Origin: Streptomyces sp. NBC_01351
Lineage (GTDB): Bacteria > Actinomycetota > Actinomycetes > Streptomycetales > Streptomycetaceae
Assembly (NCBI RefSeq): GCF_036237315.1
Contig: NZ_CP108356.1
Span: forward strand, 3,282,501-3,346,500
DNA: 64,000 nt
Direction: 5' to 3'
The notes beneath the pieces were generated by a model. The model searched no databases, was not told the DNA's origin, and saw nothing but the letters and a program-made list of their open reading frames with translations. Of this stretch, positions 6,375 to 39,218 are shown piece by piece. Position 1 is the stretch's first letter. Every line of letters begins with the position of its first letter. A program made the position numbers and the translations under genes.

Positions 6375-6555
6375 GAAGTCACCGTAAATGAGCTGCCGGA
6401 AATAGCCGGGATTGTCGGTTTCGGAGACTACGGTCGTCGATTGTGACTTTTCGCCCGACGACTCATCCGTTCCATGCCCTGGTCTTGCGCAGGCTGCGGT
6501 TCCGCGCCCGGCTCACCGCCCGGATCGCCTTCCGGCTGCCCAGGCGACCGCTCGG

Positions 6556-7170
6556 TCAGGAGGGACGCACGGTGGCCGCGGCCGCCGCGTCGGCGGGCGC
6601 GCCCGGCTGCGCCGGAACGCCCGTCGGGCCCGTGCCGAAAGGGTATTCGCGCAGCTTGCGCCAGACCCCGTCGGAGCCCTGTTCGTAGAGCGCGAAGCCC
6701 TCGCAGACCCACTCCGCGGCGTACTCGGCGAGCGCGGTGAACGCCAGGTCCATCGCTTCCTCGGAGATCCCGTGGGCGACGGTGACGTGCGGGTGGTACG
6801 GGAACGCCAGCTCGCGGCTCAGCGGACCCTCCGGGTCGCGGACCTCGCTCTGGAGGCGGGTGCAGCCCGCGCCGCCCTCGACAACCTGGACGAAGACGAC
6901 CGGCGACAGGGGCCGGAAGGTTCCCGTCCCGGCGAGGCGCATCCGGAAGCCGCGGAAGGCCTCCGCGACCTCGGCCAGGTGGGCGCGGATCGCCGGCAGC
7001 CGGTCGGCCTCGACCTCGGTGGGCGGCACGAGGGTGACATGCGTGGGAATACCGTGCGCGGCAGCGTCCCCGAAGCCCGCGCGCAGCTCCTGGAGCTGGC
7101 TGCCGTACGGCTCCGGGACCGCGATCGAAACGCCGAGCGTTACGGTCCCCACGTATGTCTCCTCCGTCAT
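6556..7170 (-). CDS. 2'-5' RNA ligase-like (2H phosphoesterase superfamily) protein
   Basis: The 204-residue protein carries the two HxT/Sx motifs that define 2H phosphoesterases: HVTL near residue 43 in IPTHVTLVPP, and HVTV near residue 127 in YHPHVTVAHG. The length and spacing agree with the bacterial 2'-5' RNA ligase / cyclic phosphodiesterase family, which act on 2',3'-cyclic or 2'-5' linked nucleotides; the physiological substrate is unknown. The ATG at 7170 was preferred over a GTG at 7206 because the added residues do not match the family start, although neither has a strong ribosome site. The C-terminus is a low-complexity Ala/Pro tail. It lies downstream of trpS with an 87-bp gap and may be co-transcribed. 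Confidence 0.85.
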   Translation of the reverse strand: MTEETYVGTVTLGVSIAVPEPYGSQLQELRAGFGDAAAHGIPTHVTLVPPTEVEADRLPAIRAHLAEVAEAFRGFRMRLAGTGTFRPLSPVVFVQVVEGGAGCTRLQSEVRDPEGPLSRELAFPYHPHVTVAHGISEEAMDLAFTALAEYAAEWVCEGFALYEQGSDGVWRKLREYPFGTGPTGVPAQPGAPADAAAAATVRPS

Positions 7171-7257
7171 CCGAGTGCGTGCTGTCGCCCAGTGTGGGGG
7201 CAGCACCCCCTGTCCCGCCAGGGCGGTCTTTCGCGAGTGCTTCCGACCGCGCTTCCG

Positions 7258-8729
<1,472 letters not shown>

Positions 8730-10001
8730 TCAGGACAGGGGGAGGCCCGGGGCCGGGTACGCGGACATGAGGTCACCGACCTCGGACCGGATCGCCACCA
8801 GCTCGGCCTCGTCGGCCTTGGCGGCGGCCGCCACGGCCCGGGAGATCCACTCCGCGACCACCGGCATGTGCTCGACCCCCAGCCCCCGCGACGTCAGCGA
8901 CGGCGTCCCGATCCGGATCCCCGAGGGATCGAACGGCTTGCGCGTGTCGAACGGCACCGTGTTGTAGTTCACCACGATCCCCGCCCGGTCCAGCGCCTTG
9001 GCCGCGACCTTCCCCGGGACCCCGCGCGAGGTGAGGTCCATCAGGATCAGGTGGTTGTCCGTACCGCCCGAGACCAGGTCGAAGCCCCGTTCCAGCAGAG
9101 CGGCGGCCAGCGCCCGCGCGTTCGCGACGACCGCGTGCGCGTACGCCGTGAAGGACGGCTGCGCCGCCTCGTGGAGGGCGACCGCGATGCCGGCCGTCGT
9201 CTGGTTGTGGGGCCCACCCTGGAGGCCCGGGAAGACCGCCTTGTCGATGGCCTTCGCGTGCTCCTCCCGGCACATCAGCATCGCGCCGCGCGGACCCCGC
9301 AGGGTCTTGTGCGTGGTGGTGGAGATGACGTCCACGTGCCCCGCCGGGGACGGGTGCGCGCCGCCCGCGATCAGGCCGGCGATGTGCGCCACGTCCGCGA
9401 CCAGGATCGAGCCCGCCTCCTCGGCGATCGACGCGAAGGCCGCGAAGTCGATCGTGCGCGGGAGTGCCGTACCGCCACAGAAGATGATCTTCGGGCGCTC
9501 GGCCAGCGCCAGCTCGCGCACCGCGTCGTAGTCGATGCGCCCGTCGTCCGCGCGCACGCCGTACTGCACGCCCCGGAACCACGAGCCCGTCGCCGAGACG
9601 CCCCAGCCGTGGGTCAGGTGCCCGCCCATCGGCAGGGCCATGCCCATCACCGTGTCGCCGGGCTTCGCGAAGGCCAGGTACACGGCCAGGTTCGCCGGGG
9701 AGCCGGAGTACGGCTGCACGTTCGCGTGGTCGACCCCGAAGAGGCCCTTCGCGCGCTCGACGGCCAGCGCCTCCACGCGGTCGATGTTCTGCTGGCCCTC
9801 GTAGTAGCGGCGGCCCGGGTAGCCCTCGCTGTACTTGTTCTGGAGGACGGTGCCGGAGGCTTCGAGGACGGCCGCCGAGACGTAGTTCTCGCTGGGGATC
9901 AGCCTCAGCGTCTCGGCCTGCAGGGTCTCCTCCGCCGCGACGAAGGACGCCAGCTCGGGGTCGGTCGCGAGAAGGGCGGGGTGACGGTGGTTCGCGCTCA
10001 T
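8730..10001 (-). CDS. glyA: serine hydroxymethyltransferase
   Basis: A 423-residue PLP enzyme that interconverts serine and glycine with transfer of a one-carbon unit to tetrahydrofolate. Visible hallmarks are LIPSENYVS near the N-terminus, NVQPYSGSPAN, ADVAHIAGL, the PLP-lysine motif STTTHKTLRGPRG, and VSGGTDNHL towards the C-terminal part. The ATG at 10001 has a strong GGAGGAG ribosome site 6 bases upstream; the longer open frame runs through the leader and is not coding. The leader contains a probable ZTP riboswitch (10044-10126), which would tie expression to folate/purine status. A 3' repeat element follows the stop codon. Confidence 0.97.
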   Translation of the reverse strand: MSANHRHPALLATDPELASFVAAEETLQAETLRLIPSENYVSAAVLEASGTVLQNKYSEGYPGRRYYEGQQNIDRVEALAVERAKGLFGVDHANVQPYSGSPANLAVYLAFAKPGDTVMGMALPMGGHLTHGWGVSATGSWFRGVQYGVRADDGRIDYDAVRELALAERPKIIFCGGTALPRTIDFAAFASIAEEAGSILVADVAHIAGLIAGGAHPSPAGHVDVISTTTHKTLRGPRGAMLMCREEHAKAIDKAVFPGLQGGPHNQTTAGIAVALHEAAQPSFTAYAHAVVANARALAAALLERGFDLVSGGTDNHLILMDLTSRGVPGKVAAKALDRAGIVVNYNTVPFDTRKPFDPSGIRIGTPSLTSRGLGVEHMPVVAEWISRAVAAAAKADEAELVAIRSEVGDLMSAYPAPGLPLS

Positions 10002-30809: not shown

Positions 30810-32117
30810 TCACGGCACGGGGAGGGGCCGCTTCTCGAGCGCCGCGGCCATCACCTCGGGGAACAGGTCGGGGGTGCAGGCGAAGGCCGGCGCCCCAAGC
30901 GCCGCAAGGGCGGCGGCGTGCTCGCGGTCGTAGGCCGGGGCGCCCTCGTCGGACAGCGCCAGCAGGGTCACGAACTCGACCCCCGACGCCTTCATCGCGG
31001 CGACCCGCTTCAGCATCTCGTTGCGTATGCCGCCCTCGTAAAGGTCGCTGATGAGAACGACGACGGTGTCGGCGGGTCGGGTGATCTTCGACTGGCAGTA
31101 GGCCAGGGCCCGGTTGATGTCGGTGCCACCGCCCAGCTGGGTGCCGAACAGAACGTCCACCGGGTCGTCGAGCTGGTCCGTCAGGTCCACGACGGCGGTG
31201 TCGAAGACGACCAGCCTGGTCGCGATCGACCGCATCGAGGCCAGCACCGCCCCGAACACGGAGGCGTAGACGACGGAGGCCGCCATCGAACCCGACTGGT
31301 CGATGCAGAGGATCACCTCCTTCTTCACCGACTGCGCCGCCCGGCCGTAGCCGATCAGCCGTTCGGGGACGACGGTGCGGTACTCCGGCAGGTAGTTCTT
31401 GAGGTTGGCCCGGATCGTGCGGTCCCAGTCGATGTCGTGGTGGCGGGGCCGGCTGATCCGGGCGGACCGGTCGAGCGCGCCGGTGAGCGTGGCCCGCGTC
31501 TTGGCCGCGAGCTTCTTCTCCAACTGCTCGACGACCTTCCGGACGACGGCCCGCGCCGTCTCCTTCGTCGTCTCGGGCATCGCCTTGTTCAGGGAGAGCA
31601 GGGTGCCGACCAGATGGACGTCGGGCTCCACGGCCTCCAGCATCTCGGGCTCCAGCAGCAGGGCGGACAGGCCGAGCCGCTCGATCGCGTCGCGCTGCAT
31701 CACCTGGACCACGGAGCTGGGGAAATACGTACGGATGTCCCCGAGCCACCGGGCCACGTTCGGCGCGGAGCCGCCCAGCCCGGCCGACCGCTCGCCGGAC
31801 CCCTTCCGGGACCGCTCACCACCCCCACCGCCGCCGTACAGCGCCCCGAGAGCGGCGTCCATGGCCGCGTCCCGCCCGCTCAGCGCACACCCGGTCCCAT
31901 CGGCCTCTCCCCCACCGAGCACCATCCGCCACCGCCGCAACCGCCCCTCGCCCACGGCGCTGCTCGCGGCCATCCCCTGGCCACTCCGCAGCCCGCCCGG
32001 CCCGCCGCCGGCGGCGGTGCCGGCGTCGTCCGGGCCTCCTCCGGTCGGCTGCCCGTCCGGCGCGACCGCCTGATGCGCGCCCGCTCGGAGCTCCGCCTGG
32101 TTTCCCGTCATGGCCAT
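30810..32117 (-). CDS. VWA (von Willebrand A) domain protein of the MoxR/DUF5682 operon (YehP-like)
   Basis: A 435-residue cytoplasmic protein. About 100 N-terminal residues are Gly/Ala-rich, then a helical region (VVQVMQRDAIERLGL, LVGTLLSLNKAMPE) and a C-terminal VWA domain from about 260. The MIDAS metal site is complete: DQSGSM, the Thr in GGGTDINRA and the Asp in ISDLYEGG. VWA proteins paired with MoxR ATPases act as adaptors in ATP-dependent assembly of metal or protein complexes. ATG 32117 has a GGGGGA ribosome site; an ATG at 32111 is also in frame. It is the last gene of the operon, separated from DUF5682 by 150 bp that hold a 3' repeat copy. Confidence 0.85.
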   Translation of the reverse strand: MAMTGNQAELRAGAHQAVAPDGQPTGGGPDDAGTAAGGGPGGLRSGQGMAASSAVGEGRLRRWRMVLGGGEADGTGCALSGRDAAMDAALGALYGGGGGGERSRKGSGERSAGLGGSAPNVARWLGDIRTYFPSSVVQVMQRDAIERLGLSALLLEPEMLEAVEPDVHLVGTLLSLNKAMPETTKETARAVVRKVVEQLEKKLAAKTRATLTGALDRSARISRPRHHDIDWDRTIRANLKNYLPEYRTVVPERLIGYGRAAQSVKKEVILCIDQSGSMAASVVYASVFGAVLASMRSIATRLVVFDTAVVDLTDQLDDPVDVLFGTQLGGGTDINRALAYCQSKITRPADTVVVLISDLYEGGIRNEMLKRVAAMKASGVEFVTLLALSDEGAPAYDREHAAALAALGAPAFACTPDLFPEVMAAALEKRPLPVP

Positions 32118-32182
32118 ACGTCCGTCCCCCTGCACTCGTCATCTCCACCGACCTTCACGGCCGCCACCTTCAACCCCTCCGG

Positions 32183-32245
32183 CGGGCGCACTCAGCCCCG
32201 CCGGCGATTGAGGCGCGGGGCCCGGGGCAGCGCCCCGGCAATGGC
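32183..32245 (-). repeat. dispersed 3' repeat copy after the DUF5682 gene
   Basis: Read on the minus strand it contains CCGGGGCGCTGCCCCGG (hairpin), then CCCGCGCCTCAATCGCCGGCGGGGCTGA, the family core, starting about 20-50 bp after the DUF5682 stop. It interrupts the operon between DUF5682 and the VWA gene and could attenuate or process the transcript there. Confidence 0.75.
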
Positions 32246-32267
32246 GCCGCACCCGGCAACCGCGCCC

Positions 32268-34556
32268 TCAGGCCACCGCACCGGCGAGCAGCAGCCGAAC
32301 CAGCGGCACGACCGCGTCCGCCCGCTCCGGGTCCAGCTCCGGCGCGAAGCCCTCGGGGGCCTCGCCCGAGGGAGCCACCGAGCCCGGCCGCCCGCCAGGG
32401 CCCCGGCGGACCAGCTCGCCCAGCGTGCGCTTCACCCCCGGCTCGTACGCCCCGAACGTGCGCCGCAGCAGCGGCAGTACATCGGTGAACGCGCGCTCCG
32501 GGACCCCCACCAGCCAGCTGTCGATCAGGCCCAGCAGCCGCTCGTCGTGGACGAGCAGCGTGCCGCCGCCCGAACTCCCGCCCGCGAAGCCCTCGATCCA
32601 GCCCGCCGCGTCGGCCGGCTCGGCCGCCGGTGACAGCGCGAGCCCCATCAGCCGGGCCGTCTCCTCGGCCGGCAGCCGCCCGTCGTCGAGCAGCAGCCTG
32701 GCCGCCCGGCCGCGGATCAGGCCGGGCACGGTGTCCCGGCCGGCCAGCGTCCGCAGCACCGCGGACCAGCGCTCGCGCAGCCCCTCCTCCGCGTCCGCGA
32801 ACAGCCCGATCGCGCCGTGCACCCCGTCCACGTGGCCCCGCAGCTCCGCCGCCGCGTCGGCGTCGAGCCCGGTCGCGCAGGCCGACGGGAGGGCCACGCA
32901 TATCCGCTCGGCGAGGCCGGTCGCCACCGTGGCGAGGGCCGCCGCGTCGGTGCCCCGGACGTCCCCGTACCGCAGCGAACGGGCCAGCGCCGGCAGGGCC
33001 TTCGCGAGCCGCGCCACATCGGTGTCCAGCGCCGCCCGGTCGGCGAGGGCCCTCAGCACGGCGGGCAGTGCCTCGGACAGCCCGGCCAGCAGGCACTGCT
33101 CGGCCAGTGCCGTGACCTCGCCCAGTTCCTCGGCGGCGGCCGCTTCGGTCTCGGCCTTGGCGGTGGCCGCCGCCAGGACGGTGGTCCCCCATATGCCGGC
33201 CTCGGCGACCCGCACCGACAGCTCCGGCTCCCACCGGAGCCGCCAGGTCTCCCGGAAGGTCCCGGTGCTGCCCCGGGAGGCGGTCGGCCTGCCCCACTCG
33301 ATCCCGAGCAGCCGCAGCCGGTGCAGCAGCAGGGACTTCGCGGCGTCGGTGTCCTTGCGGAGGTCCAGTTCCAGTTCGCGGTCGTGCGCCTCGGCCTTGA
33401 GGCGCAGCGAGCGCTGCTGCCGGGTGAGGTCGCGCTGGAGCGGTACAACGGGAGCGCCGTCGGGGACCTCTCCGAGCACGTCGCCGACCACCAGGCGGTC
33501 CTCGATCAGCGCGAGCGGTACGTCGGAGCCGTCGCACATCACCGCGCGGACGGCCTCCAGCGTCTCGGTGAGCCCGGGCAGCGGTCTCCCCCGCATCGCG
33601 GCCAGGGTCTCGGCCAGCCGGACCGCCTCGATCACGTGCGCCGAGGAGACCTGCCGGTCCTCCTCCCGCAGCAGGCCGGCGACCTTGGTCAGCCATCGTT
33701 CGACGGGCCGGTCGCGGGCCGCGAAGAGGTGGGCGTACCAGCCGGGCGAGGTGATGCCCGCCCCGTACCCGCCGGCCCGGGCGAGCCTGCGGTGGGTCCA
33801 GGGCACCCAGGTGGTCTCCACCTTGACCTTCGGGAGGCCGGTGAGCAGCGCCTTGTCCGCGGCGACGGTGGTCTTCGCGCGCAGTGCCGGGACATGCCAG
33901 GCCCCGCAGACCACGGCGTACCGGTCGCCGAACTCCCTGCGGGCGGCGCGCATGCGCTGGCGCATGTACGCCTCGCGCACGAGGTCCCGGGCGTGGCCGC
34001 CGTCGCCGTACGCCTCCCGCAGGGCGCCCATGGCCTCGCCGAGCGCCTCGAACGCGCCCAGCGCGTCGGCCTCCTTGGCCCCCCGGTGTTCGACCACGTC
34101 CTCCCACCAGCGCTCGGGGTCGTCGTACCCGGCGGTCTCGGCCAGCACCGCGAGGGGGTCCACCCGGACGGGATCGGCTCCCTCGTCCCCGTCTTCCCCT
34201 TGCGCCGCCTTCCCCGCCTCCCCGACGGCGAGCGAGTGCGCGGCCGGCAGGTCCATGAACCGCACCGGTACGCCCGCCTGCTGCGCCCAGCGGATGGCGA
34301 CCCATTCCGGGGAGAACTCGGCCAGCGGCCAGAACGCGGCCCGGCCCGGGTCGTCCGCGGCGTGGGCGAGCAGCGCCACGGGGGGCCGCATGCCCGGGTC
34401 GGCGGCGAGTGCGAGGAGGGCGTCCCCCTCGGGCGGGCCCTCGATCAGGACCGCCGCCGGCCGGGCGGTCTCCAGGGCGGCCCGCACCGCGCGGGCCGAC
34501 CCGGGCCCGTGGTGCCGTACGCCCAGCAGCAGGGGGCCCTCGGGGCTCGGGCTCAT
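32268..34556 (-). CDS. DUF5682-family protein (YehM-like), middle gene of MoxR/VWA operon
   Basis: A 762-residue, mostly helical cytoplasmic protein. The N-terminus LLLGVRHHGPGSARAV is characteristic of DUF5682, with ALLIEGPP-type (VLIEGPPEGD) and VRFMDLPAAHSLA strands after it. E. coli YehM has a similar size and operon position. It contains no catalytic motif I can name, though the paired His (RHHG) and the strand-end acidic residues suggest a possible metal site. ATG 34556 overlaps the stop of the AAA+ gene as ATGA, so translation is coupled. Genes of this type co-occur with MoxR, VWA and SWIM proteins; the function of the set is unknown. Confidence 0.82.
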   Translation of the reverse strand: MSPSPEGPLLLGVRHHGPGSARAVRAALETARPAAVLIEGPPEGDALLALAADPGMRPPVALLAHAADDPGRAAFWPLAEFSPEWVAIRWAQQAGVPVRFMDLPAAHSLAVGEAGKAAQGEDGDEGADPVRVDPLAVLAETAGYDDPERWWEDVVEHRGAKEADALGAFEALGEAMGALREAYGDGGHARDLVREAYMRQRMRAARREFGDRYAVVCGAWHVPALRAKTTVAADKALLTGLPKVKVETTWVPWTHRRLARAGGYGAGITSPGWYAHLFAARDRPVERWLTKVAGLLREEDRQVSSAHVIEAVRLAETLAAMRGRPLPGLTETLEAVRAVMCDGSDVPLALIEDRLVVGDVLGEVPDGAPVVPLQRDLTRQQRSLRLKAEAHDRELELDLRKDTDAAKSLLLHRLRLLGIEWGRPTASRGSTGTFRETWRLRWEPELSVRVAEAGIWGTTVLAAATAKAETEAAAAEELGEVTALAEQCLLAGLSEALPAVLRALADRAALDTDVARLAKALPALARSLRYGDVRGTDAAALATVATGLAERICVALPSACATGLDADAAAELRGHVDGVHGAIGLFADAEEGLRERWSAVLRTLAGRDTVPGLIRGRAARLLLDDGRLPAEETARLMGLALSPAAEPADAAGWIEGFAGGSSGGGTLLVHDERLLGLIDSWLVGVPERAFTDVLPLLRRTFGAYEPGVKRTLGELVRRGPGGRPGSVAPSGEAPEGFAPELDPERADAVVPLVRLLLAGAVA

Positions 34557-35659
34557 ACCGTCACCTCCCGGCAGGCGCGGTAGAAGTCCTTCCAGCCGTC
34601 GCGCTCGCGGACCACGGCCTCCAGGTACTCCTGCCAGACGACCTTGTCGGCGGCGGGGTCGCGGACGACGGCGCCGAGGATCCCCGCGGCCACGTCGGAG
34701 GGGCGCAGCACGCCGTCCCCGAAGTGGGCGGCGAGGGCGAGGCCTCCGGTGACGACGGAGATGGCCTCGGCCGTGGACAGGGTGCCGCTGGGGGACTTCA
34801 CCTTGGTGCGGCCGTCGTCGGTGACCCCGTCGCGCAGCTCGCGGAAGACGGTGACGACGCGGCGGATCTCTTCCAGGCCCTCGGGCGCGGCCGGCAGGTC
34901 GAGGGCGCGGCCCATCTGGTCGACGCGGCGGGCGACGATGTCCACCTCGGCGTCGGCCGTGGCGGGCAGCGGCAGGACCACGGTGTTGAAGCGGCGGCGC
35001 AGCGCGCTGGAGAGCTCGTTGACCCCGCGGTCGCGGTCGTTGGCGGTGGCGATGAGGTTGAACCCGCGCACGGCCTGCACCTCTTCGCCGAGCTCCGGTA
35101 TCGGCAGGGTCTTCTCGGACAGGACGGTGATGAGGGTGTCCTGGACGTCGGCCGGGATACGGGTGAGCTCCTCGACGCGGGCGGTCATGCCGTCGGCCAT
35201 GGCCCGCATGACGGGGCTGGGGACGATCGCTTCGCGGCTGGGGCCGTGGGCCAGGAGCCGGGCGTAGTTCCAGCCGTAGCGGATGGCCTCCTCGGGGGTG
35301 CCGGCGGTGCCTTGGACGAGGAGGGTGGAGTCTCCGCTGACCGCGGCCGCGAGGTGTTCGGACACCCAGGTCTTGGCGGTGCCGGGGACTCCGAGCAGGA
35401 GCAGGGCGCGGTCGGTCGCGAGGGTGGTGACGGCGACTTCGACGATGCGGCGCGGCCCGACGTACTTGGGTGTGATGACCGTGCCGTCGGCGAGGGTGCC
35501 GCCCTGCAGGTAGGTGGCGACGGCCCACGGAGAGAGCTTCCAGCGGGTCGGGCGAGGCCGGTCGTCGGCGGCCGCCAGGGCTTTCAGTTCGTGTGCGAAG
35601 GCGTCTTCGGCGTGCGGTCGCAGGGCCTCGGCTCCGCTGCCGTTCTCGTGCTTGGTCAT
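34553..35659 (-). CDS. MoxR-type AAA+ ATPase (YehL-like)
   Basis: A 368-residue ATPase. The Walker A motif is GVPGTAKT (90-97), sensor 1 is IATANDRDRG, the arginine-finger region is LSSALRRRFN, and a C-terminal lid follows. At the Walker B position the usual DE appears as EE in TARVEELTRIP, so the first acidic residue is Glu. MoxR ATPases work with VWA partners to remodel or activate target complexes. ATG 35659 has a GGAGGGGG ribosome site 3-8 bases upstream; the longer frame has none. It heads the operon AAA+ - DUF5682 - VWA, divergent from the SWIM gene across a 134-bp region with a 10-bp inverted repeat. Confidence 0.9.
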   Translation of the reverse strand: MTKHENGSGAEALRPHAEDAFAHELKALAAADDRPRPTRWKLSPWAVATYLQGGTLADGTVITPKYVGPRRIVEVAVTTLATDRALLLLGVPGTAKTWVSEHLAAAVSGDSTLLVQGTAGTPEEAIRYGWNYARLLAHGPSREAIVPSPVMRAMADGMTARVEELTRIPADVQDTLITVLSEKTLPIPELGEEVQAVRGFNLIATANDRDRGVNELSSALRRRFNTVVLPLPATADAEVDIVARRVDQMGRALDLPAAPEGLEEIRRVVTVFRELRDGVTDDGRTKVKSPSGTLSTAEAISVVTGGLALAAHFGDGVLRPSDVAAGILGAVVRDPAADKVVWQEYLEAVVRERDGWKDFYRACREVTV

Positions 35660-35716
35660 GGTCCCCCTCCAATGCTCGGCAGCCGCTCCCGACTGCTGGT
35701 TCCAAGGTGCACCACG

Positions 35717-35773
35717 CCACTGACAACGGGCCCTATTCATAGCGTTGTTGCAGGTCAGAGCGATTGTCAGTGG
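35717..35773. promoter_or_regulatory. paired inverted-repeat arms flanking the divergent promoters of the MoxR and SWIM genes
   Basis: CCACTGACAA (35717-35726) and TTGTCAGTGG (35764-35773) are perfect 10-bp inverse copies, 37 bp apart. Between them on the minus strand are candidate promoter hexamers (CTGACC, 17 bp, TAGGGC). The right arm lies 7 bp before TACGGT (35781-35786), the likely leaderless -10 of the SWIM gene. Two half-sites bound by one regulator could control both operons. Confidence 0.6.
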
Positions 35774-35793
35774 GGGTCTCTACGGTTGTTGAC

Positions 35794-37137
35794 ATGACTG
35801 AGCAGGGGGTCCGCTGGACAGCGGAACAGGTACTGGCTCTGGCTCCTGACGATGCCTCACGCAAGGCGGGAAGCAGACTCGGCGGGACGGGGCCGTGGTC
35901 GCAGATCGGAGGTTCCGCTTCCGGTTCTGTATGGGGGTTGTGCAAGGGCAGCGGCCGCACGCCGTACCGGACGGTCGTGGACCTGACGGGACCGGCATAC
36001 AAGTGCTCTTGCCCGAGCCGGAAGTTCCCGTGCAAGCACGCGCTGGGGCTGCTGCTGCTCTGGTCCGCCGAGGGGGTGGGCGAGCCCGGGGAGGCGCCGG
36101 ACTGGGCCGCGCAGTGGCTGGCGGACCGGGCGGCGAAGGCCGCCCGCCCGGCTGCCGGGGCGGCCGGTCCGGTGGACGCGGAAGCCGCGCGGAAGCGGGC
36201 CGAGCGGCGGGCCTCGCGGATCGGCGCGGGTGTCACCGAGCTGGAGCAGCGGCTGGCCGATGTGCTGCGCGGCGGCCTCGCGGGCCAGGAGCAGGCCGGA
36301 TACGCGGCGTGGGAGGAGACGGCGGCCCGGATGGTGGACGCCCAGGCTCCGGGACTGGCGGGGCGGGTACGGGAGTTGGGGACGATACCCAGTTGCGGGC
36401 CCGGCTGGCCCGCCCGGATGCTGGAGGAGGCGGCGCTGCTGCACTTGCTGGACCGGGCCTGGCTCGGTGTGGCCGGGCTGCCCGAACAGCTGGCCGCGAC
36501 GGTGCGCAGCCGAGTGGGACTGCCGGCCTCCGGGGAGGGGGAGGCCGTACGGGACCGCTGGCTGGTGCTGGCCCAGTACGACTCGGCGTCACCGGACGGC
36601 CGGCTCACCACCCGCCGGATATGGCTGCGCGGGCTGGCGGGCGGGCGGCCGGCCCTGGTGCTGGACTTCGGACCGCCCGGGCGGCCACCGGGGCTGGCGC
36701 TGCCCGTGGGGCTGGTGCTGGAGGCGGAGATCCGCTTCCGGCCCGGGTCGGCGGGGCTGCGGGCGGACCTCGGGGAGAGATTCGCGGCGGCCATGCCGTG
36801 CACGGAGGTTCCGGCCGGGGTGAGCACGGGGGCGGCGCTGGAGGCGTACGGGGCGGCACTGCGGGATGACCCGTGGCTGGAGTCCTGGCCTGTGGTGCTG
36901 GGCCCGGTGGTTCCGATACCGGGAGAGCTCGGCTGGCAGCTGGCGGACGCGGAGGGCACCTCCGCGTTGCCTGTGCCGCTCACGGGGACGGGCAGCCGGT
37001 CCCGCGGGGGCCTGTGGCAGCTGGCCGCACTGTCGGGCGGGGGTCCGGTGACGGTGTTCGGCGAATGCGGTCACCGGGGATTCACCCCGCTGACGGCCTG
37101 GCAGCCGGGCTCACCGGAGCCGGTGGCCCTGGGCTGA
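35794..37137 (+). CDS. SWIM zinc-finger protein (YehQ-like)
   Basis: A 447-residue protein. The SWIM signature CxC..CxH is complete at C71, C73, C80 and H82 (KCSCPSRKFPCKHALG); it binds zinc and usually mediates DNA or protein contacts. The rest is helical then beta-rich, with RLTTRRIWLRGL and VLDFGPPGRPP, and has no enzyme motif I recognise. ATG 35794 follows TACGGT by 7 bases, so the mRNA may be leaderless. The gene is divergent from the AAA+ operon, as SWIM genes are in related clusters, and is followed by the DUF5691 gene after 295 bp. Confidence 0.88.
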   Translation: MTEQGVRWTAEQVLALAPDDASRKAGSRLGGTGPWSQIGGSASGSVWGLCKGSGRTPYRTVVDLTGPAYKCSCPSRKFPCKHALGLLLLWSAEGVGEPGEAPDWAAQWLADRAAKAARPAAGAAGPVDAEAARKRAERRASRIGAGVTELEQRLADVLRGGLAGQEQAGYAAWEETAARMVDAQAPGLAGRVRELGTIPSCGPGWPARMLEEAALLHLLDRAWLGVAGLPEQLAATVRSRVGLPASGEGEAVRDRWLVLAQYDSASPDGRLTTRRIWLRGLAGGRPALVLDFGPPGRPPGLALPVGLVLEAEIRFRPGSAGLRADLGERFAAAMPCTEVPAGVSTGAALEAYGAALRDDPWLESWPVVLGPVVPIPGELGWQLADAEGTSALPVPLTGTGSRSRGGLWQLAALSGGGPVTVFGECGHRGFTPLTAWQPGSPEPVALG

Positions 37138-37432
37138 CCGGGCCGGAAAACAAGGGAAAACGCTGGGGGCCTGGGGGGTCCTGTGTCCTCTCGCGAGGAC
37201 GGCGGGAAGTACGCGGCGGCGCGGGGGCGCCGGCGTGTTGGCGACGAGAAGCCGGGGGGCTTGCATGAGCGACAACCACGCCAGTTGAGCGCAGTTGAAC
37301 GAGTCGGACAGGTCGAGCAGGGCCGGCAGGCCGAGCAGGCCTGACGGGGCATGGACGGCTCCGGTCCCGCGGAGGGGGCGGGACCGGAGCGCGGGACACG
37401 GAGCGGGAAGAGCGGGGAGAGGGAGGGGCGCG
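37138..37432. other. intergenic region upstream of the DUF5691 gene
   Basis: No gene, tRNA or clear terminator is visible in these 295 bp. A short-range repeat CAGTTGA-GCG-CAGTTGA occurs near 37280-37300, and the final 60 bases are strongly purine-rich, ending in the DUF5691 ribosome site. Open frames that extend the downstream gene into this region lack ribosome sites. Confidence 0.5.
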
Positions 37433-39019
37433 ATGGACAAGGGCGACGAGGGGTACGGGAACTGGGAGGAGCTGGTCGGCGCCGCACTGCTGGGCACCGA
37501 GCGGCGCGGGGGCGGGGGGCCGACCGGCTCTCCGGAGGCGCTGCTGGACGCGGCGGCCGTGCACGCCGTGCGGCGCCGGGCCGGGCTGCTGCCGGCCGAG
37601 GCGGGCCCGCGCCCGGAGCCCGCGCCCCGGGATCCACGGCCGGCGCCGCCGGAAGCGGCCCGGCGGCGGCTCGCGCAGCTGCTGGCGGGCCGCTCGGGTG
37701 CGGCCGCCAGTGGCGGGCGGAGGGGGGCCGCCCCGGATCTTACGGAGCTGCTGCCCCAGTGGCTGGCCGCCGCCCGGCGGCACGGCTACCGCTCACCGGC
37801 CTCGCTCCTCCCGGCGCTGCTGGACGCCGCCCGGGCGCGTACGGACCTGCGGCCGCACGCCCTGGCGTTGGCCGGGGTGCGGGGGTTGTGGCTGGCCCGG
37901 CTGAATCCGGACTGGCGGTTCGCCCTGCGGGGAGGGGCGACGGGCGCGGGGGAGCTCCCGGACGTGACCGACGCGGCGGGGGTGGAACGACTCTGGGAGG
38001 AGGGGCTGTTCGCGGAGCGGGTGGCGCTGCTGGGCGCCGTACGGGCACATGAGGCGGCGGCCGCGCCCCGCTTGCTGACGACGACCTGGACCACGGAACG
38101 GGCCGAGGACCGGCTGATGTTCCTCGACTCCCTGAGGGTGGGTCTGTCGGACGGGGACGAGCCGTTCCTGGAGGCGGCGCTCGGTGACCGCAGCCGCAAT
38201 GTCCGCGCGACTGCCGCCGAATTGCTGTCGGCGCTGCCGCGCTCCGCGCTGGCGGGGCGGATGGCGGAGCGCGCGCTGGCCTGCGTGGGCCCGGAGGGGG
38301 TGACCCCGCCGGCCGAGTGCGATGCGGGGATGCTCCGCGACGGGGTGGTCAAGCGGCCGCCCGCCGGGCGGGGGGAGCGGGCGTGGTGGCTCGGCCAGCT
38401 GGTTGAGGCGGCTCCGCTGTCCTGCTGGCGGGAGCGGTTCGGGGGCCTCGGACCGGCGGAGATAGTGGCCCTGCCGATCGCCGGGGGCGAGGGCTGGACG
38501 GAGGAACTGCACGCGGCGTGGTGCCGGGCGGCGGTGCGCCAGCGTGACGCGGAGTGGTCGCGGGCGCTGCTCGGCCCGGCGTCCGCGCCACCCGCGGCGG
38601 GCCCGGGCACGGCCTCGCTGGCCGAGCGGGCCAAGCTGCTGTCGATCCTGCCGGACGCGGAGCGGGCGGCCTGGGTCGCGGAGTTCATACGTGCCCACGG
38701 ACTCTCGGAGGCGTTCCAGTTGCTCGGGGTGTGCGTGGTGCCGTGGGCGGGGGCGCTGGGGCGGGCGGTCGTGGACGCGCTGGACATAGCCCGGGAAGCG
38801 GGCAGCTACCCGTGGAGCTTCAGCGGTGTGATGGGGCTGGCGGAACGCTGCCTCGACCCCGCGGAGGCCGGACGGCTGGAGGCGCTGACCGCTGCCGCGG
38901 AGGATCCGCGGGACGCGGTGCCGGGGGCTGCCGCGTACTGGGCGGAGGCCTTTCAGCGGCTGGTCGCCACGCTGCGGCTGCGCGAGGCCATGCTGGCGGA
39001 GCTGGCCGTGGCGGCCTGA
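37433..39019 (+). CDS. DUF5691-family protein, helical-repeat type
   Basis: A 528-residue, mostly alpha-helical protein. The N-terminal NWEELVGAALLGTERRG is typical of DUF5691. The central part (about 200-300) has HEAT-like helical repeats, with LEAALGDRSRNVRATAAELLSALP, and the C-terminus has YPWSFSGVMGLAERCLDP. No catalytic motif is evident; a scaffold or adaptor role is plausible. ATG 37433 has a GGGAGGGG ribosome site. In actinobacteria this gene commonly follows the SWIM gene and faces the MoxR/DUF5682/VWA operon, so it is probably a fifth component. A 3' repeat copy starts about 33 bp after the stop. Confidence 0.82.
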   Translation: MDKGDEGYGNWEELVGAALLGTERRGGGGPTGSPEALLDAAAVHAVRRRAGLLPAEAGPRPEPAPRDPRPAPPEAARRRLAQLLAGRSGAAASGGRRGAAPDLTELLPQWLAAARRHGYRSPASLLPALLDAARARTDLRPHALALAGVRGLWLARLNPDWRFALRGGATGAGELPDVTDAAGVERLWEEGLFAERVALLGAVRAHEAAAAPRLLTTTWTTERAEDRLMFLDSLRVGLSDGDEPFLEAALGDRSRNVRATAAELLSALPRSALAGRMAERALACVGPEGVTPPAECDAGMLRDGVVKRPPAGRGERAWWLGQLVEAAPLSCWRERFGGLGPAEIVALPIAGGEGWTEELHAAWCRAAVRQRDAEWSRALLGPASAPPAAGPGTASLAERAKLLSILPDAERAAWVAEFIRAHGLSEAFQLLGVCVVPWAGALGRAVVDALDIAREAGSYPWSFSGVMGLAERCLDPAEAGRLEALTAAAEDPRDAVPGAAAYWAEAFQRLVATLRLREAMLAELAVAA

Positions 39020-39051: not shown

Positions 39052-39218
39052 GCCGCTGCGCGGAGCTTCTCCCCGCCCCGCCCTTTCTCCGTTTCCCGGG
39101 CTCTGCCCGAACCCCCGCGCCTCAAACGCCGGCGGGGCTGAAATTGCCCCACGGGCAATCCAGCCCCGCCGGCGTTTGAGGCGCGGGGGTTCGGGGGCGG
39201 GGCCCCCGACAACGGCGG
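39052..39218. repeat. back-to-back dispersed 3' repeats between convergent DUF5691 and icmB genes
   Basis: A sense copy for DUF5691 (39052-39141: GCCGCTGCGCGGAGC..., a CCCGGGCTCTGCCCG hairpin, then CGCGCCTCAAACGCCGGCGGGGCTG) meets an inverse copy (39158-39218) in sense orientation for icmB. The two cores can pair into a stem of about 24 bp around a 17-19-nt loop, giving a bidirectional terminator-like structure. Confidence 0.85.

Follow-up and report, generated by a model that had tools for sequence, protein, structure and literature searches.

The 64,000-nt stretch of Streptomyces sp. NBC_01351 analysed here (the window, from a host genome of 8.9 Mb) carries at positions 30810..39019 a locus of five genes, which encode a MoxR-type AAA+ ATPase (AAA), a DUF5682 protein, a VWA protein, a SWIM zinc-finger protein and a DUF5691 protein. 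AAA, DUF5682 and VWA are read leftward and SWIM and DUF5691 rightward from a 134-nt gap (35660-35793). The five genes are a nearly obligate set. Judged by sequence, a RecA-NDp/PafBC-type damage promoter motif stands in Streptomyces at the start of both divergent units, in exact form on the SWIM side and in relaxed form on the AAA side, and the N-terminus of DUF5682 appears to be a TIKI/TraB-like domain, a putative peptidase or esterase. We consider it about an even chance that the five proteins work together as a single ATP-driven machine in a LexA-independent DNA damage response, taking the whole chain of steps proposed below together with topoisomerase-DNA complexes as clients. The analysis gives two concrete handles on YehL-type systems. 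One is the TraB/TIKI-like domain of the DUF5682/YehM family, whose catalytic-type residues are conserved, and the other is the damage-type promoter at the Streptomyces locus. If true, the proposal would be the first testable role for a bacterial gene set whose cousin is E. coli yehLMPQ.

Relatives of the locus were collected by genome searches, by a scan of genome contigs (at least 440 confirmed, the best 80 used, all of them Streptomyces) and by tblastn against plasmids. Across 246 genomes of the phylum, DUF5682 was observed in 19 and DUF5691, above the cut-off, in 17; each of the 17 also belongs to the 19 and has both genes no more than about 6 kb apart. The DUF5682 genomes without DUF5691 (G204 and G124) carry other DUF5682 types only, and three genomes that lack DUF5682 and match DUF5691 only below the cut-off (G049, G153 and G187) were left out of the counts. 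Within Streptomyces, DUF5691 is present in 143 of 150 genomes. Four of the other seven (G253, G281, G358 and G359) also lack the AAA of the window-locus type, DUF5682 and SWIM (VWA was not searched there), and in the remaining three (G272, G354 and G385) a contig ends at or inside the locus. Identical order and directions of the five genes were found in 63 of 80 Streptomyces loci, with 16 others cut by a contig end. The last one, L103, has no VWA within 1.4 kb after DUF5682, a true or an assembly exception, and it was the only one met when scattering and independent loss were checked over Streptomyces. In the 65 Streptomyces loci long enough to judge, sucC and sucD always lie past VWA at 0.2-4.5 kb and a B12-binding mutase gene always lies on the DUF5691 side; these three genes were not found in 17 other stretches.

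We refer to loci by types A-D, which are labels set by gene content in this analysis, type A being the type of the window locus with DUF5691. The run SWIM-DUF5691-AAA-DUF5682-VWA is collinear in all 13 non-Streptomyces type-A loci, nine of them actinobacterial and the others on Deinococcus, Hymenobacter, Methylosinus and Rhizobium plasmids. A sequence-only reading of the window had described a shared divergent control region, which is real in Streptomyces and does not extend to these loci. The Methylosinus VWA gene (L144) is broken over three frames. SWIM is fused to DUF5691 in one reading frame in Hymenobacter (L142), and the two also share a frame in L123 and L124. This fusion, together with the constant order and the shared absence, supports the earlier view that the parts belong together. 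A Fusobacterium locus (L150) has the same run, except that the place of DUF5691 is taken by a 637-aa protein (6956-8866) that belongs to no Pfam family, and DUF5691 was not detected in Fusobacterium; the slot may therefore be an exchangeable module. Small proteins without a Pfam match were noticed between AAA and DUF5682 in Hymenobacter (L142, 9362-9970, 203 aa) and Deinococcus (L143, 9756-9989, 78 aa), and these could be extra subunits. A scan of viral contigs with the DUF5682 alignment matched 34 stretches, none of which was confirmed.

Alignment of the SWIM-AAA gap in 67 Streptomyces loci, the window included (gaps of 80-260 nt were kept), revealed two conserved inverted copies of TTGTCAGTG. 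The SWIM-facing copy, TTGTCAGTG-N8-TACGGT, is an exact match at promoter distance to TTGTCRGTG-N8-TANNNT. This is the consensus of LexA-independent DNA-damage promoters, written tTGTCRgtg-8nt-TannnT in an excerpt of PMC5656591, and the RecA-NDp motif is activated by PafBC in mycobacteria (PMC6789036, excerpt). The strict SWIM-facing motif was observed in 70 of 74 Streptomyces loci (68 of 74 in a narrower region), and its -10 box lies 7 nt from the first in-frame SWIM start in 66 loci and 6 nt in 4. As the motif in the window ends 7 nt before the SWIM ATG, it would yield a leaderless or near-leaderless transcript. For the AAA-facing copy a CANNNT -10 was found in 71 loci; in the narrower count, 70 of 74 loci have the relaxed form and none has the strict one. 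None of 40 first-order Markov simulations of the window contained the SWIM-facing motif.

The exact motif occurs 18 times in the whole genome and the reversed control does not occur. Open reading frames (ORFs) starting no more than 450 nt from these sites include recA, dnaX, dnaG, polA, ruvC, ung, genes for a SNF2-type helicase and a RecD2-HHH-domain protein, and the SWIM gene of the window. Also found there are a DUF4132 gene before a type-C DUF5682 cluster, a glyoxalase, a macro-domain protein (among stretches L189, L191 and L204) and a transposase, the rest being a weakly assigned YidC-like protein and four ORFs without a Pfam match. The same three stretches include a protein with a VWA-like N-terminus, recognised by eye, and a small ORF; Pfam gives no match for either at 1e-5. 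All 21 Streptomyces genomes counted have 14-44 exact motifs each, while the control occurs at most once. In five genomes, and among the matches listed for a sixth, one of these motifs lies 1.5-1.7 kb from DUF5691, at the SWIM start. These counts suggest a sizeable RecA-NDp-type regulon in Streptomyces. According to an excerpt of PMC9380542, Streptomyces encode PafBC homologues and an initial search suggested that the motif is not conserved in S. venezuelae; our counts disagree with that remark, S. venezuelae not being identified among the 21 genomes.

The resemblance to the mycobacterial RecA-NDp/PafBC regulon lies in the exact consensus before SWIM and in recA, ruvC and other repair genes that carry the motif here. 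It differs in that the regulon was described for mycobacteria. None of the 13 type-A stretches from outside Streptomyces held the strict motif, L123 having TTGTCGGT at the equivalent place, and 6 of the 15 actinobacterial type B, C and D stretches scanned have the strict motif (the scan left out L125). In the scan of the other loci, no LexA- or DdrO-type boxes were found where the operons begin, besides a match before yehF (described below) and loose CTG-N10-CAG matches, which lie just inside the coding start in L142, in L143 and, for SWIM, in the window.

The second line of evidence comes from DUF5682. As helical-repeat matches swamped the full-length model and a TraB chain appeared at rank 8, the N-terminal domain was folded alone. 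The model of residues 1-240 has the TIKI/TraB/ChaN/Ere core fold by Foldseek and VIA, where the superfamily membership of rows 2qgm and 6a8j was judged by title and residue numbering. A comparison of this domain with TraB/PrgY by hhalign gave moderate agreement only (probability 72.8, P 3.2e-5, 199 columns; controls 0.1-0.8). No Pfam TraB match was found in DUF5682 at E 0.1, and a PDB profile search with DUF5682 gave nothing useful (best E 0.29). The candidate active-site residues H15, E39 and H221, with R194/E195 and E84, are conserved in 115-116 of 116 sequences, 80 of which are Streptomyces near-relatives. Because the first glycine of GxxH varies (kept in 107 of 116, proline in 8, one gap), we claim conservation for His/Glu/His only. 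The active site of the superfamily is 2His/2Glu (PMC6254334); H15, E39 and H221 match this His/Glu pattern and either E84 or E195 may be the second glutamate. These catalytic-type residues are retained in four divergent types.

Residues 1-240 share with TIKI/TraB/PrgY, ChaN and erythromycin esterase the fold and the His...Glu...GxxH pattern, and also have the R(E/D)xx(M/L) helix seen in PrgY. What sets DUF5682 apart from that superfamily is its long helical-repeat arm and its linkage to a MoxR-VWA pair. It is also without the glutamate found two residues before the first histidine in RRSP. The arm model resembles PP2A-scaffold, importin and VPS35-type folds, which may reflect a mere common helical arrangement. 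No paper on DUF5682 or DUF5691 was found in the open-licence literature.

AAA and VWA keep intact ATP and metal sites. AAA has Walker A GVPGTAKT and the Walker B acidic pair EE; the glutamate at the first acidic position, which had been read as a possible subfamily mark, is real and occurs in 110 of 110 AAA sequences including YehL, so that it marks the whole clade. The metal-site motifs of VWA (DQSGS, GGGTDI and ISDLYE) contain the DxSxS, T and D residues, in line with the intact site reported earlier. They are conserved among the patterns listed, at most eight per type, L144 and L151 with their split VWA genes being left out, and asparagine replaces the metal-site threonine in 3 of 6 type-D proteins. 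The best NCBIfam match of VWA is the ViaA model, far below its cut-off. The locus resembles RavA-ViaA and other MoxR-VWA pairs in having a MoxR-type AAA+ with a VWA partner, whereas its subfamily is different and three extra partners are linked. The SWIM ligands CxC...CxH are invariant in 7 aligned relatives. DUF5691 is possibly made of helical repeats, with a Pfam HEAT match of only 0.067; PDB profile searches with DUF5691 and with SWIM gave no matches. Short DUF5691 frames of 312-352 aa, covering the N-terminal family part only, were noticed in actinobacterial family f29 (L126-L128, L130 and L132). No paper joining MoxR, SWIM and vWA, or MoxR, TraB and ChaN, was found among titles, abstract starts and passages of the open-licence literature.

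The locus was said to have the same main components as E. coli yehLMPQ. This holds for the homologues of YehL, YehM and YehP, which are adjacent here in L-M-P order (29% identity for DUF5682/YehM; AAA and VWA in Table 1). Equating the locus with YehLMPQ is not supported, and the two differ in DUF4132 and in the AAA branch. Apart from a SWIM finger in both, no similarity to YehQ was detected: YehQ has no blastp similarity to the SWIM or DUF5691 protein, and its hhalign probability against SWIM is 20.9% for 48 columns, some frames in the SWIM set used being fused or overlong. The strong DUF5691-SWIM hhalign match stems from fused frames in both sets. No DUF4132 match was found at the window locus or in 13 other type-A stretches, and DUF4132 is present in all eight type-B loci. 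DUF5691 and DUF4132 as equivalents were rejected (hhalign 0.8%). In the AAA tree, made by a quick method, unrooted and with some long branches flagged, 20 type-A rows fall on one side of a branch with support 90 (99 with Fusobacterium), and YehL with types B, C and D falls opposite (99). Both systems have the order AAA-DUF5682-VWA, the EE Walker B and a SWIM protein nearby, whereas yeh carries DUF4132 (YehI) and the window locus DUF5691, on separate AAA branches, and both types occur in this genome. By these comparisons the locus is a sister of yeh, not yeh itself.

Type B consists of AAA, DUF5682, VWA, a YehQ-like SWIM protein and DUF4132 and was found in E. coli, Agrobacterium, Sinorhizobium, Iodobacter, some actinobacteria and this genome. 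In type C, AAA is accompanied by a frame that joins DUF5682 to VWA; DUF4132 belongs to the type-C loci of this genome (L133/L188) and of a plasmid from S. atratus. Type D is VWA-AAA-DUF5682 with a divergent DUF5682. Two further DUF5682 systems of this genome are a type C at 375000-394500 (L133) and a yehLMPQ-type B at 759000-778500 (L134). MoxR-VWA systems and the YehL subfamily were already known, and YehL ranks among seven named MoxR subfamilies and is one of the two MoxR proteins of E. coli K-12 (PMC3893208, excerpt); no function for the E. coli yeh operon was found in the open-licence literature. Mitomycin C raises the level of DRA0166, a DUF4132 protein of Deinococcus radiodurans, and the rise depends on IrrE/DdrO (PMC8533742, excerpt). 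A relative of the sister type's partner is thus damage-induced too. In E. coli (L002), a LexA-like CTG-N10-CAG near 6450 precedes by 25 nt the WGR gene of the yeh region, yehF.

Published experiments on S. coelicolor appear to concern the same cluster. Excerpts of PMC8120823 report that a transposon in sco4804 (815 aa) lowers the topA transcript to ~70% and TopA protein to ~50%, that it also lowers gyrB and the sco4805 transcript, that sco4804 and adjacent genes are up ~eightfold on TopA depletion and that over-expression of sco4804 raises topA promoter activity; the authors propose SCO4804 to be a transcription regulator. The length, the gene order and a pair of ORFs in L060 that look secreted and lie between VWA and sucC lead us to infer that sco4804 is DUF5682, with sco4803 as AAA and sco4805 as VWA. 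DUF5682 has 748-870 aa in 68 of 70 loci, the frames in the other two being longer. The assignment leans on the numbers sco4800 for icmB and sco4808 for sucC, which we take to be correct. The 815 aa, the polar effect on sco4805 and the two ORFs in L060 speak for DUF5682 rather than SWIM as SCO4804. The upstream gap of sco4804, reported as 103 nt (PMC8120823, excerpt), misfits the usual AAA/DUF5682 overlap unless the start was annotated downstream. DNA damage, to which the promoter motif points, may account for the induction of the cluster.

In the mechanism that we propose, DNA damage would turn on both divergent units and the products would assemble into one complex. Where DNA is damaged or under topological stress, SWIM and DUF5691 would recognise a target; VWA would hold the target peptide and bridge it to the MoxR ring, ATP hydrolysis would unfold or pull the target and the TraB-like domain of DUF5682 would cleave it. 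The likeliest targets would be protein complexes stuck on DNA. Topoisomerase complexes would be the first candidate because of the induction on TopA depletion and the altered topA and gyrB expression in the mutant, and they are the weakest element of the chain. A broader version, which we offer as speculation, is a machine that clears DNA-protein complexes. Here a damage-induced MoxR-VWA motor recruited by SWIM/DUF5691 would extract trapped proteins, such as covalent or stalled topoisomerase complexes, and pass them to a TIKI/TraB-type peptidase, and YehLMPQ-DUF4132 would be a variant with another recruitment module. Such a machine would be a functional analogue of the eukaryotic p97-SPRTN pair.

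Four other explanations were weighed. MoxR-VWA might activate or assemble one enzyme complex, as proposed for RavA-ViaA or NorQ, with the TraB-like domain structural or cofactor-binding and the promoter merely placing the locus among stress genes. The MoxR proteins studied are thought to mature specific complexes (PMC3893208, excerpt), midasin and NorQ are among the solved relatives of the AAA part, and the near-core distribution in Streptomyces would fit as well. No client gene stands out, however, since sucC, sucD and the mutase gene do not accompany the other stretches, and a scaffold would not need the catalytic-type residues that DUF5682 keeps over four divergent types. We regard this explanation as unlikely.

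A conflict system against phages or plasmids, in which SWIM/DUF5691 would sense invader nucleoprotein, MoxR-VWA would set a threshold and DUF5682 would be the effector, is improbable. vWA-MoxR ternary systems were proposed as conflict systems (PMC7159879, excerpt), and the vWA-MoxR-VMAP systems described there likewise combine MoxR, VWA and a third large protein. The main point in favour is the presence of type-A relatives on Rhizobium, Methylosinus, Hymenobacter and Deinococcus plasmids, and a type-B locus on an Iodobacter plasmid adjoins type I restriction-modification genes. On the other hand, no PADLOC match was obtained (best E 0.012), Pfam found no VMAP, effector-associated (EAD-type) or ternary-complex domains in the five proteins at E 0.1, and the bpMoxR Pfam score is below its cut-off. 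Defence genes are typically patchy, whereas this locus lies no more than 5 kb from sucCD in every testable Streptomyces locus and DUF5691 is near-universal in the genus. The conflict role raised by the sequence-only reading therefore receives little support.

Damage-induced protein turnover without a topoisomerase link, with MoxR-VWA feeding for example repair or division proteins to the TraB-like peptidase after stress, draws on the same motif and domain evidence as the proposed machine and leaves the topA/gyrB effects unexplained; we find it quite improbable. Least probable is that the DUF5682 protein regulates transcription at the topA promoter, possibly with SCO4805: the topA, TopA and over-expression results fit this, but the mutant is polar on sco4805 with gyrB down, so its effect may be indirect. 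Moreover, Pfam detects no DNA-binding domain in the protein, and its TIKI/TraB-like domain and helical repeats speak for a machine of the enzyme-chaperone kind instead.

The sequence-only reading had placed five genes with these domains in two divergent units, and all were found there with Pfam in agreement on each (Table 1). The likely starts are at 32117 (or 32135) for VWA, 34556 for DUF5682, 35659 for AAA, 35794 for SWIM and 37433 for DUF5691. Coupled ATGA starts, also described earlier, exist at the AAA/DUF5682 junction, where a 4-nt overlap was observed in 58 of 75 Streptomyces loci, and not at the other junctions of the window. The spacing between DUF5682 and VWA is 132-150 nt in the window, and the two overlap in many relatives.

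Table 1. Features of the five-gene locus in the window. Pfam E-values were computed on slightly longer gene forms from the first ORF reading.
Feature	Position	Strand	Evidence
VWA (CoxE-like), co-chaperone candidate	30810..32117	-	PF05762 7.7e-61; 36% identity to YehP
DUF5682 protein, 762 aa: putative N-terminal TIKI/TraB-like domain and C-terminal helical-repeat part	32268..34556	-	PF18934 1.1e-294, models, fold matches
Predicted HEAT-like helical-repeat region, DUF5682 residues ~460-720	32397..33179	-	model and fold matches
Putative TIKI/TraB/ChaN/Ere-like domain, DUF5682 residues 1-240	33837..34556	-	Foldseek, VIA, hhalign to PrgY, conservation
MoxR-type AAA+ ATPase, YehL-like	34553..35659	-	PF07728 (AAA_5) 6.7e-37; 40% identity to YehL
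Second promoter-motif copy, TTGTCAGTG-N8-CACCTT, relaxed -10, facing AAA	35704..35726	-	alignment and motif scan
RecA-NDp/PafBC-type promoter motif, TTGTCAGTG-GGGGTCTC-TACGGT, facing SWIM	35764..35786	+	exact consensus match
SWIM zinc-finger protein, 447 aa	35794..37137	+	PF04434 2.9e-6
DUF5691 protein, 528 aa	37433..39019	+	PF18944 7.1e-163

In addition, similar GC-rich stretches (GCCGGCG...TTGAGGCGCGGGG-like, by eye) were noticed after DUF5682 (32170-32240) and after DUF5691 (39120-39190), and these look like a dispersed repeat or terminator.

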